Assembly: GCF_002208115.1 (NCBI RefSeq)
Contig: NZ_CP020946.1
Location: forward strand, 1,984,001 to 2,048,000
Direction: 5' to 3'
Source of the DNA: Bdellovibrio bacteriovorus
GTDB lineage: Bacteria; Bdellovibrionota; Bdellovibrionia; Bdellovibrionales; Bdellovibrionaceae
DNA: 64,000 nt
How positions within the stretch are numbered: position 1 is the stretch's first letter; each line of letters opens with the position of its first letter. The position numbers and the translations under genes are program-made. The notes under the pieces are model-generated. The model made no database searches and had not been told where the DNA came from. It saw only the letters and a program-made list of their open reading frames with translations. Of the stretch, positions 5,572 through 11,607 are shown in pieces.

Positions 5572-6324
5572 TCAGGTCAGTTTTGAGGAAGACGGAAGAG
5601 TCGCTTCGGTGTCCGGAGCGGACTCCTTCAGCATTGCAAAAACGGCATTCTGGAAGCACACCAGGGACTCCCCGGCCTCAGAGTCAAACTCGGCGATAAA
5701 CTCGCGCTGGAAGGCCCGCAAACGCGCAATAGCCTCTGGCAGGCGCGACCGTTCCATGCGGATGAAGTTGGTCGAATACTGGCGGGACTCTTTGGGAACC
5801 AAATCAAAGGATCGTTCCAGCAGACCCAGAACTTCCTGGTGCATAGATTTGGGATCGGGCCTTTCCGGAACCCCGGGCTCCAAAGCCAGAACCTCCGCGG
5901 TCTTCATCCCGAGGATCGGCCCCAGCATCTCGGCGAGACTTTCGGTGTCCTCAAAGCGAGGCATGCGAAGTCCTTCGCGCACGATATAGCGAGCCAGAGA
6001 GTTTTTCTTATCCCCGTCCAGATGATTCAGAACCATGATTCGCAGGGTGCTGCTTTCGATGGACTTTTCATACTTTACCAGATTGGTGAAATGATTCTTC
6101 TCAAGCTCCGTAAACTCGAAATACTGGCACATGGTCCCCAGCAGCTTGTCACCGATATGTCTTTTGCGGTTCAGGATCATGGACAGGGCCGACGGATACG
6201 AAAGGCCCAGATGACGAGTCCACACGGACAGACTCCAGCCCGCGCGATTTTCACTGCGCCAGTTGTTATAGTCCGCCAGAAAGGCGCGATAATCCTTATA
6301 GTTCAGAATATCAGACTTGTTCAT
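5572..6324 (-). CDS. TIGR02147/DUF4423 family regulator
   Basis: A 250-residue member of the TIGR02147 paralogous family. The N-terminal third (DYRAFLADYNNWRSENRAGW, then LSYPSALSMILNRKRHIGD) is an Xre-like helix-turn-helix in which the protein tests short-spaced helices; the rest is the DUF4423-like helical part with the typical 'ESTRQYSTNFIRM-E-R' type core, here ESRQYSTNFIRMERSRLPEA, which the family shows before the C-terminal strand. The role is inferred to be DNA binding. It is divergent from the secreted protein at 6473 and shares with it an intergenic region holding overlapping TTCAC-N7-GTGAA palindromes. It ends with a Ser/Glu-rich tail unlike the other three copies. Confidence 0.82.
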   Translation of the reverse strand: MNKSDILNYKDYRAFLADYNNWRSENRAGWSLSVWTRHLGLSYPSALSMILNRKRHIGDKLLGTMCQYFEFTELEKNHFTNLVKYEKSIESSTLRIMVLNHLDGDKKNSLARYIVREGLRMPRFEDTESLAEMLGPILGMKTAEVLALEPGVPERPDPKSMHQEVLGLLERSFDLVPKESRQYSTNFIRMERSRLPEAIARLRAFQREFIAEFDSEAGESLVCFQNAVFAMLKESAPDTEATLPSSSKLT

Positions 6325-6357
6325 CGTGGGACCCTTATACCTCAGGGTCCCGCCAAG

Positions 6358-6395
6358 CGTTCACAAGTTTAGTGAACGTTCACAAAGGCTGTGAA
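6358..6395. promoter_or_regulatory. Overlapping TTCAC-N7-GTGAA palindromes in a divergent intergenic region
   Basis: CGTTCAC-N7-GTGAACG (6358-6378) is directly followed by TTCAC-N7-GTGAA (6379-6395), and the junction itself forms the perfect 12-bp palindrome GTGAACGTTCAC (6372-6383). The element lies between the TIGR02147 gene (start 6324, leftward) and the secreted-protein gene (start 6473, rightward). Regular half-site spacing suggests a dimeric regulator bound in tandem, plausibly the adjacent TIGR02147 protein. Confidence 0.65.
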
Positions 6396-6472
6396 AGGTT
6401 TTCATGGAGCACCGCTTGTCCGGGAAAAATATCTATGTCAAACATCTCGACATCAAAACAAAAGGAGTTTTT

Positions 6473-6949
6473 ATGAAACTGATGATCGCTATGCTTATGA
6501 TGTTGCCGACTTTGGCTACTGCTGCCACTGAAATCGTTTACAACAGCTCTTCCAACCCATACATCCCAGCTCGTGGCTATGTTACCGCACAGCAAATCTG
6601 CCTGAACGCAAACAAAGACTCTTTCAAAGTCTTCGTTGCCCAGCACACTGTTGAAACCTGCGAATCTGTAAAAACAGACTACTCTGACTCCACTCGTCCT
6701 AAAAAAGTATGCGTTGGCCGCAAAATGGTCACTGTTCCTGCGACAACAAAAACTGTTTCTGCTTTCACTAAAAAAGAAGTCTGCCAGAAATGGAACCGCA
6801 ATGACTCTGCTTACCCACGTTGCGTAAGCTCTGTTATGAAAGACACCATGTACTCCACTTCCTACACTCAGTACAAATATGAGCAGGCTGACTGGAGACG
6901 TGAACGTCCGATTTCTTCTGTGAACAAATACATCGAAACTTGCAAATAA
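6473..6949 (+). CDS. Small secreted Cys-containing protein
   Basis: The 158-residue product has a signal peptide (MKLMIAMLMMLPTLATA, cleavage near ATA-ATE) and a mature part rich in Tyr, Ser, Thr and Lys with six cysteines that could form disulfides. It contains a Val/Thr-rich stretch VTVPATTKTVSAFTKKEVC that recalls the Cys-rich protein at 44500. AAAAGGAG lies 6 bases before the ATG at 6473. It sits downstream of the palindromic operator and ends in a strong terminator, so it is a monocistronic unit opposite the TIGR02147 gene. The codon choice is uniform and highly T-ending in places (GCT, GTT, TCT), as in strongly expressed genes. Function unknown. Confidence 0.75.
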   Translation: MKLMIAMLMMLPTLATAATEIVYNSSSNPYIPARGYVTAQQICLNANKDSFKVFVAQHTVETCESVKTDYSDSTRPKKVCVGRKMVTVPATTKTVSAFTKKEVCQKWNRNDSAYPRCVSSVMKDTMYSTSYTQYKYEQADWRRERPISSVNKYIETCK

Positions 6950-6976
6950 GCCCCTCTGATCAAGGATCTTTGCAAA

Positions 6977-7006
6977 GGCGCTGGCTGAAAAGTCAGCGCC
7001 TTTTTT
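6977..7006 (+). terminator. Rho-independent terminator
   Basis: GGCGCTG/CAGCGCC stem (6977-7000) followed by TTTTTTATTTT, closing the secreted-protein gene at 6473-6949. Confidence 0.9.
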
Positions 7007-7412: not shown

Positions 7413-8156
7413 TCACTTGACCGGCACGGTCAAAGGGAAGAACTGAATATTCAGGTTGTAGACCTCGGACGGTTCACCCTCTTCTGCCAGCAAAGAAAGA
7501 CGCTGGCGGAACTTTTTAATGAGCGCCTTGACCTCTGTCATCTTCTCGGGATTGAAAGCCAAAGTGATCGCAGAATAATCGCGACGGTCCGGAGTCGTGA
7601 CCTTAAGAACCTCAATGGCTTTATTCATATCAGAAACATGGGCCTGGACCAGGGCATGACTGGGAATATCGGAAGTTGTGCCCAGACTTGCCACTGTGCG
7701 CACGAATATGTTCCCATGCATCTTGATAAAACCAAGATTCATCAGCAGATCCAGACTGTGCTGTACTTTTTCAACCGGAATGCCCAGGCGCTGGCTGATC
7801 CATTTTTCGCTGGATTGAAATTGCGGGATACGCATCAGATTAAGAATCGCAAAATGCTCCCAGCTTGAAAGAAGCTCCAGTTGCTGTTCGGTCAGCCTTT
7901 TTTGCACATTGAATTTGCGGGAGCGGGTCGCAATCATCGCATAAACCTGATTGCGCTCTTCAACCCCCAGTTCCAGACCCAGAACAATCTTGCTGGCATA
8001 GAACTCACTCAAAGGCCGCTTGCCGTGCATGAGCTCATTCAGGCATCCGGGAGAGATCGCGACTTTTTTTGCCAGGGAACGGAAAGAAAAACGTGGATTT
8101 CGTTTTTGAATTTCATCGAGTTTGCTTTTCAAAAAATTACCGAAGGGATTCGACAT
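7413..8156 (-). CDS. TIGR02147/DUF4423 family regulator (second copy)
   Basis: A 247-residue family member (start MSNPFGNFLK). The N-terminal HTH runs through FSFRSLAKKVAISPGCLNEL and the MHGKRPLS turn; the next part (EQQLELLSSWEHFAILNLM, IPQFQSSEKWISQRLGI) is the winged-helix-like DUF4423 core, and the C-terminus (RRDYSAITLAFNPEKM ... YNLNIQFFPLT) is the conserved family end. TTGGAGATGT precedes the ATG at 8156; the reading frame extends 18 codons further without a site. An inverted repeat GTTCC-N15-GGAAC lies upstream. Predicted transcriptional regulator; target unknown, nearest downstream partner is FKBP on the other strand. Confidence 0.85.
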   Translation of the reverse strand: MSNPFGNFLKSKLDEIQKRNPRFSFRSLAKKVAISPGCLNELMHGKRPLSEFYASKIVLGLELGVEERNQVYAMIATRSRKFNVQKRLTEQQLELLSSWEHFAILNLMRIPQFQSSEKWISQRLGIPVEKVQHSLDLLMNLGFIKMHGNIFVRTVASLGTTSDIPSHALVQAHVSDMNKAIEVLKVTTPDRRDYSAITLAFNPEKMTEVKALIKKFRQRLSLLAEEGEPSEVYNLNIQFFPLTVPVK

Positions 8157-8228
8157 ACATCTCCAAAAAAATCTTGAGAAATTCTTCAACTTTTTTGGCT
8201 GCACTTGCAAGCCTTATCTGTTCGTTTA

Positions 8229-10750: not shown

Positions 10751-10842
10751 GCCTGTTATAATTTCAAATGCCCGAATGAAAGTGGCTGTTCCCCAATGTA
10801 ATCTTGCTCGAACTTCGAGGGACTGCTACTTCTGCGACCCTT

Positions 10843-11607
10843 ATGTCGGGACTTGAGAATCTGCCTTACTTTGCACTCAAACTTCAGGAACAGTTTCTGG
10901 CCAGGAAAGCCCGGAACAAGCGCTATTCCCTGCGCTCCTATGCGCAGTTTCTAGAGATCAACCCCGGCACCCTGTCTGCGATCATCAAAGGCAAAAGACT
11001 TGTGCCTTTGCAGGAAGCGGCCAAGGTCATGCATAAGCTTTCTTTAGCCCCGAAAGATCAGGAGCAGTTCCTGCTCAGTCTTGGAGTGAACAAACCACCT
11101 GCTGAATCATCTTACAAATTGGATCCCAGCCGCTATGCCGTGCTTTTTGATGAGTGGGAGTATTTTGTAATTCTGGCCGTGTTTCGTCTGGCGGATTTTA
11201 AAAGCACCACAGCCTGGATTGCCAACAAAACCGGAATCACCGAAGCCCGCGTGGATGAGTGCCTCGAAGTCCTGCAGAACCTGCAGGTCATCTCCCGTAA
11301 AGGCCCGACGTGGGAACGCAATCACAAGAGCCTGTATTCACCTCATGACATTCCCTCCCGATCCCTGCAGCAGGCTCATTTAAACTCCCTGGAACTGGCC
11401 CGACAAATGATTTCGCGTGTGCCCGTGACGGAAAGAGACTATTCCTTCCTGACCGTGGCCCTGGATGAAAAAAGATTTAAAAAACTGAAGAAGCTGACCC
11501 TGAAGTTTCGCGATGATGTCTTTGCTCTGGATGAACAATCCAAAAAAGGTCAGCTCTATCGCGTGAACCTGCAGTGTTTCCCCATTCTGACCCCGAAACC
11601 CAAATAG
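10843..11607 (+). CDS. TIGR02147/DUF4423 family regulator (third copy)
   Basis: A 254-residue family member from the ATG at 10843 (MSGLENLPYF). A TTG at 10804 would add 13 residues but has no ribosome binding site, and the ATG has only a distant GAGGGA, so the start is uncertain. The N-terminal HTH is RYSLRSYAQFLEINPGTLSA with IIKGKRLVP; the DUF4423 core has FDEWEYFVILAVFRLADFKS and WIANKTGI; the conserved end is RDYSFLTVALDEKRF ... YRVNLQCFPILT. The next gene starts 10 bp after the stop and is probably co-transcribed, pairing this regulator with a secreted protein. Inverted repeats lie upstream. Confidence 0.85.
   Translation: MSGLENLPYFALKLQEQFLARKARNKRYSLRSYAQFLEINPGTLSAIIKGKRLVPLQEAAKVMHKLSLAPKDQEQFLLSLGVNKPPAESSYKLDPSRYAVLFDEWEYFVILAVFRLADFKSTTAWIANKTGITEARVDECLEVLQNLQVISRKGPTWERNHKSLYSPHDIPSRSLQQAHLNSLELARQMISRVPVTERDYSFLTVALDEKRFKKLKKLTLKFRDDVFALDEQSKKGQLYRVNLQCFPILTPKPK

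Follow-up and report, generated by a model that had tools for sequence, protein, structure and literature searches.

What is the role of the two inverted repeats with the pattern TTCAC-N7-GTGAA that lie between a predicted regulatory gene and the divergently oriented gene for a small cysteine-containing secreted protein in Bdellovibrio bacteriovorus? The window analysed is a stretch of 64 kb from a genome of 3.77 Mb (G000), and these two repeats, here called A and B, are the sole exact matches to the pattern within it. The relevant features, with coordinates in the window, are as follows.

5572-6324, minus strand: TIGR02147 regulator gene, 250 aa (NCBIfam TIGR02147, 58.6 bits against a cut-off of 50)
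6334-6339, minus strand: putative -10 box (TATAAG) of the regulator gene, 9 nt before the ATG; GGTATA in 9/9 loci
6360-6376: candidate operator A, TTCACAAGTTTAGTGAA, exact TTCAC-N7-GTGAA; second tandem site, lineage-specific
6372-6383: 12-bp palindrome GTGAACGTTCAC, seen in the sequence, made up of the inner arms of A and B with CG between them
6379-6395: candidate operator B, TTCACAAAGGCTGTGAA, exact TTCAC-N7-GTGAA; conserved primary site
6416-6421, plus strand: putative -35 box (TTGTCC) of the secreted-protein gene, 20 nt after B; CTTG in 9/9 loci at 20-21 nt
6438-6443, plus strand: putative -10 box (TCAAAC) of the secreted-protein gene, 16 nt after the -35-like box; TCAAA in 8/9 loci
6473-6949, plus strand: secreted-protein gene, 158 aa, signal peptide by inspection, six cysteines
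6974-7003, plus strand: terminator of the secreted-protein gene, 13-bp stem, loop of 4, T-tract

The initial annotation had described two overlapping palindromes sharing a 7-base spacer length and a perfect central palindrome of 12 bp, placed between a TIGR02147 gene and the gene for a secreted protein containing cysteines. Both palindromes are exact, the 12-bp palindrome is present and the divergent arrangement was borne out, but the palindromes do not overlap and are in fact in tandem, separated by 2 bp and 19 bp apart when measured centre to centre. The palindrome GTGAACGTTCAC is a by-product of this 2-bp spacing, and it was rejected as a binding unit as it is not conserved beyond the closest relatives, outside of which only site B survives. 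The fuller operator consensus is TTCACAAGnCTTGTGAA. Another inverted repeat, GGGACCC-N10-GGGTCCC at 6328-6351, encloses the putative -10 box of the regulator gene and is lost in more distant relatives.

Conservation of the locus was examined in a set of 24 Bdellovibrio genomes. An orthologue of the regulator, nearly full length and sharing 59-100 % identity, was found in nine of them, the remainder yielding weak, partial matches, and the secreted protein is encoded in exactly the same nine genomes (9/9 with the regulator and 0/15 without; Fisher p=8e-7, uncorrected for relatedness). In each of these genomes the regulator gene and the secreted-protein gene lie next to each other in divergent orientation, and in all nine orthologous loci a palindrome is kept together with the regulator in the shared intergenic region, as is characteristic of an autoregulatory divergent operator. 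Persistence of the sites in close relatives had been set as a test of the initial proposal, and at site B all ten arm columns are invariant in the nine species, compared with two of the seven spacer columns and 31 of the 158 other intergenic columns (for the invariant arms, p=3e-7, a value that, like the one above, ignores relatedness and overstates independence). An exact site A is present in just G000, G002 and G006; the site has one arm mismatch in G018 and is degenerate in G010, and six of the nine cis loci have a single exact site only. The link between regulator and operator is not the signature of a single clade, because in an rpoB tree the regulator-bearing genomes fall into three separate groups with regulator-less sisters. 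Judged from these comparisons, the operator site is real and under selection.

The secreted protein had no NCBIfam or Pfam match at threshold and belongs to no known family. In G011, G012 and G023 the protein encoded in cis is shorter, with a gap mid-protein, and the operator is kept. Those of G012 and G023 (L104:1038-1418 and L105:1038-1418) are without approximately 32 internal residues that include two of the cysteines, and the operator and the promoter spacing are retained. Paralogues of the secreted protein are also present in regulator-bearing genomes only (L039, L041-L043, L045-L047, L050 and L051). As candidate targets the paralogues were rejected; no operator was found in the 250 bp upstream of any of the nine examined, with up to two mismatches allowed. 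Hence, the regulator does not control the whole family of secreted-protein genes.

The regulator passes the curated cut-off for TIGR02147, and each of the nine orthologues has an E value of 0.01 or lower against the model. In this respect, and in a C-terminal tail that weakly resembles DUF4423 (25.7 bits against a cut-off of 30 for the window protein, 30.4 for the G012 orthologue, in both cases over the last ~70 positions only), it is like the TIGR02147/DUF4423 regulators of Fibrobacter and Bdellovibrio. It differs from them in that the TIGR02147 match, which comes from the N-terminal helix-turn-helix (HTH), covers residues 4-92 of the model only and in that the central winged-helix part found in its paralogues is shortened; the family matches are partial because part of this central region is absent. 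A first structure model, built from an alignment of the nine orthologues, was poor. A second AlphaFold model, built from a broader alignment, reached a mean pLDDT of 80 (about 77-91 over residues 11-90) and places N-terminal helices at residues 12-26, 32-38, 44-51, 59-69 and 73-88. When used to search the sequences of solved structures, the nine orthologues returned spurious matches only, and the broader alignment returned weak XRE and winged-helix matches. In fold comparisons the best Z scores were 8-9, to HigA-type chains over ~80 residues, but the Foldseek E values were 0.35 or worse. The protein is thus predicted to consist of an N-terminal lambda-repressor-like HTH (residues about 10-85) and a shortened DUF4423-type C-terminal part. 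Residues S45-N52 and K54-H56, in the predicted recognition helix and the loop that follows it, are invariant in the orthologues, as are the arms of the operator.

Dimers of XRE/HigA-type proteins bind palindromic operators close to their own gene. The predicted residues 10-96 of the regulator resemble the helical HTH fold of this group (HigA, GraA and PA4674), a likeness of protein fold that makes no claim for related operator sequences, but the regulator has no toxin partner, being accompanied instead by the divergent secreted-protein gene, and it carries a long C-terminal extension. A literature search found no operator for the TIGR02147/DUF4423 family, with TIGR02147 not named and DUF4423 mentioned by one paper in passing, and the locus did not turn up in searches on the regulons of Bdellovibrio or on small, cysteine-containing secreted proteins.

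Two more TIGR02147/DUF4423 regulators are encoded no more than 5 kb away in the window (7413-8210, minus strand, and 10804-11607, plus strand) and, unlike the regulator at 5572-6324, include full DUF4423 domains. In G012, an exact copy of TTCACAAGCTCAGTGAA (L135:1474-1490) is intergenic and precedes another TIGR02147-like paralogue by ~105 bp, which may reflect cross-regulation or chance.

The position of the operator relative to the predicted promoters bears on the mode of regulation. The distance from the end of the proximal operator to a conserved -35-like TTG is 20 nt in eight of the nine cis promoters and in four of the five promoters of a second candidate target, gene 2, described below (12/14 in all). 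Both exceptions are in G010, where the distance is 21 nt in cis and 30 nt at gene 2, the latter being about one helical turn more. The interval from this TTG to the start codon of the cis gene ranges from 56 to 76 nt and, because the spacing is held while the leader length varies, the operator-to-promoter distance looks constrained. Given standard promoter spacing, the centre of the operator is predicted to lie near -63/-64 of the secreted-protein gene and gene 2 promoters. Sites for class I activators, of which that for Escherichia coli CRP near -61.5 is an example, are similarly placed, and the operator likewise has a fixed, helically phased position upstream of the predicted -35 box, at 20, 21 or 30 nt. 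However, the half-sites of CRP are TGTGA..TCACA rather than TTCAC..GTGAA, and contact with RNA polymerase is putative here. On the other side, the ATG of the regulator gene lies 61-63 bp away from the operator centre in all nine loci. If the putative -10 box of the regulator gene is real, its mRNA would be leaderless or near-leaderless, with the operator at about the same position as on the other side; a possible alternative reading of this region is as a Shine-Dalgarno sequence (AAGG). The -35 and -10 boxes of the secreted-protein gene are weak predictions. The attack-phase FliA (sigma28) promoters of B. bacteriovorus have the sequence TTAAG-N16-CCGATA (PMC3627812), and by inspection this is absent from both predicted promoters.

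The best explanation for the whole, to which we assign a probability of roughly 0.66, is that the repeats are a TIGR02147 operator that most likely serves upstream activation of the secreted-protein gene together with autoregulation. A dimer of the regulator would bind TTCAC-N7-GTGAA via its N-terminal lambda-repressor-like HTH. Operator B would be the ancestral site, and from this position, ~63 bp upstream of the predicted transcription start of the secreted-protein gene, the bound regulator would most likely activate that gene in a class-I-like manner and would also control its own. Site A, apparently gained in the B. bacteriovorus-like lineage, would put a second dimer beside the regulator promoter, and in another lineage this regulator would have gained a target in trans that encodes another small secreted cysteine protein and is preceded by two operators. 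If the regulator does bind, then activation is probable, and the upstream, phased positions would suit activation better than steric repression.

The foremost competing explanation retains the same regulator and operator but has the protein acting as a repressor of itself, of the secreted-protein gene or of both, for example with a pair of dimers that bridges the divergent promoters or obstructs them. XRE-type proteins are very commonly used as divergent autoregulatory repressors, and the centre of the window's site A lies 44 bp from the ATG of the regulator gene, close to the expected place of that gene's -35 box. However, the universally conserved site B is upstream of both predicted -35 boxes at a fixed and helically phased distance, a second exact site is absent from six cis loci, and the predicted -35 and -10 boxes of the secreted-protein gene match poorly, as is usual for promoters that depend on an activator. 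We therefore consider repression unlikely.

Whether the adjacent protein is the factor that binds can be approached through gene 2. A scan of the relatives with the fuller motif identified an intergenic site upstream of this gene in G010, G011, G012, G022 and G023. Gene 2 is unlinked to the regulator and encodes a secreted cysteine protein of ~100 aa beside a glutathione-peroxidase-like gene (both names by inspection of translations). All five of these homologues, which are from regulator-bearing genomes, are preceded by two exact sites, 23-24 bp apart centre to centre. In seven regulator-less genomes, the upstream stretch that was read for the gene 2 homologue includes no site, even with two mismatches, though the negatives from G001 and G019 (start offset by ~1 residue) and G035 (locus read from the wrong end) are of lesser weight. 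The four regulator-less homologues whose start is clear nevertheless have TTGACT or TTGACC in their promoter region. The five genomes with the sites form one clade, and the contrast at gene 2 is therefore in essence the product of one evolutionary gain. With both promoters considered, which are not homologous, tandem double sites are found in eight of the nine genomes with the regulator and in 0 of the 15 without it; the ninth, G018, has one exact site and a copy of A with one mismatch. The cooperative binding of dimers proposed in the initial annotation is plausible, as tandem sites recur at the second promoter, but cooperativity is not required, because the spacing differs (19 bp versus 23-24 bp) and most cis loci have only one exact site.

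That the repeats form an operator for the neighbouring TIGR02147 protein, as also proposed initially, has held up, with the arms kept in all nine regulator species and the tandem sites confined to regulator-bearing genomes. On this comparative evidence, the palindromes very probably constitute an operator region for which the adjacent TIGR02147 protein is the factor, and we infer with high confidence that this protein binds them. Neighbourhood is not in itself proof of binding, and G000 encodes other regulators, including the two TIGR02147 proteins nearby; an unlinked transcription factor could instead bind the operator, the TIGR02147 gene being a mere regulated neighbour. However, such a factor would need an identical patchy distribution, as the tandem sites occur only together with the regulator, even at an unlinked gene, and the gene 2 homologues in genomes without the regulator are also without sites. 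This makes an unlinked factor improbable. Less probable again is that the inverted repeats form RNA or DNA hairpins (a terminator or attenuator) and are not sites for a protein; the sites at the second locus do lie ~40 bp past the glutathione-peroxidase-like gene, but there is no T-tract, the palindromes are not reported by the terminator scan, the window sites are upstream of the promoters of both divergent genes, and the arm sequence is invariant and the promoter spacing fixed.

Genome-wide, the single pattern TTCAC-N7-GTGAA has 19 exact copies in G000 compared with four for a reversed-pattern control. A and B are the only intergenic exact copies and, because the 17 others are all in ORFs (one straddles the stop end of an ORF), the raw excess is a coding (codon) effect and not the mark of a regulon. 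The genome search proposed in the initial annotation, for sites near other genes for exported proteins, found no further intergenic exact copy in G000, which argues against a broad exported-protein regulon; the subset of one-mismatch matches that was fetched is also in ORFs. An annotation-independent scan for exact tandem pairs recovered them in eight of the 24 genomes, always at one of the two promoters, and none with the reversed-pattern control. A scan of the 24 genomes for the operator with a TTG at 20 nt identified mainly the two known promoters in the regulator-bearing genomes, and the extra matches examined, which leave out further ones in G002 and G011, are in ORFs. Though single exact matches are not rare in the genome, the copies elsewhere are in ORFs, tandem pairs occur at only two promoters and the arms are conserved across nine species, and this conservation refutes chance as the origin of the palindromes.

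The element described here is of an ordinary kind, and the novelty lies in a candidate operator, a spacing rule and a mini-regulon for a family that is essentially unstudied. We put at about even odds the broader reading that this would be the first operator, and with it the first small regulon, of the TIGR02147/DUF4423 family, with an activator dedicated to secreted cysteine proteins of small size and a double operator that lies in cis in one lineage and before an unlinked target in another. Proteins of this family are numerous (expanded) in predatory Bdellovibrio, and the TIGR02147 family can be put directly to the test now that an operator and a spacing rule are defined and two genes stand as candidate targets. 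Taken together, the data suggest that this bacterial predator has a small circuit controlling secreted cysteine proteins.
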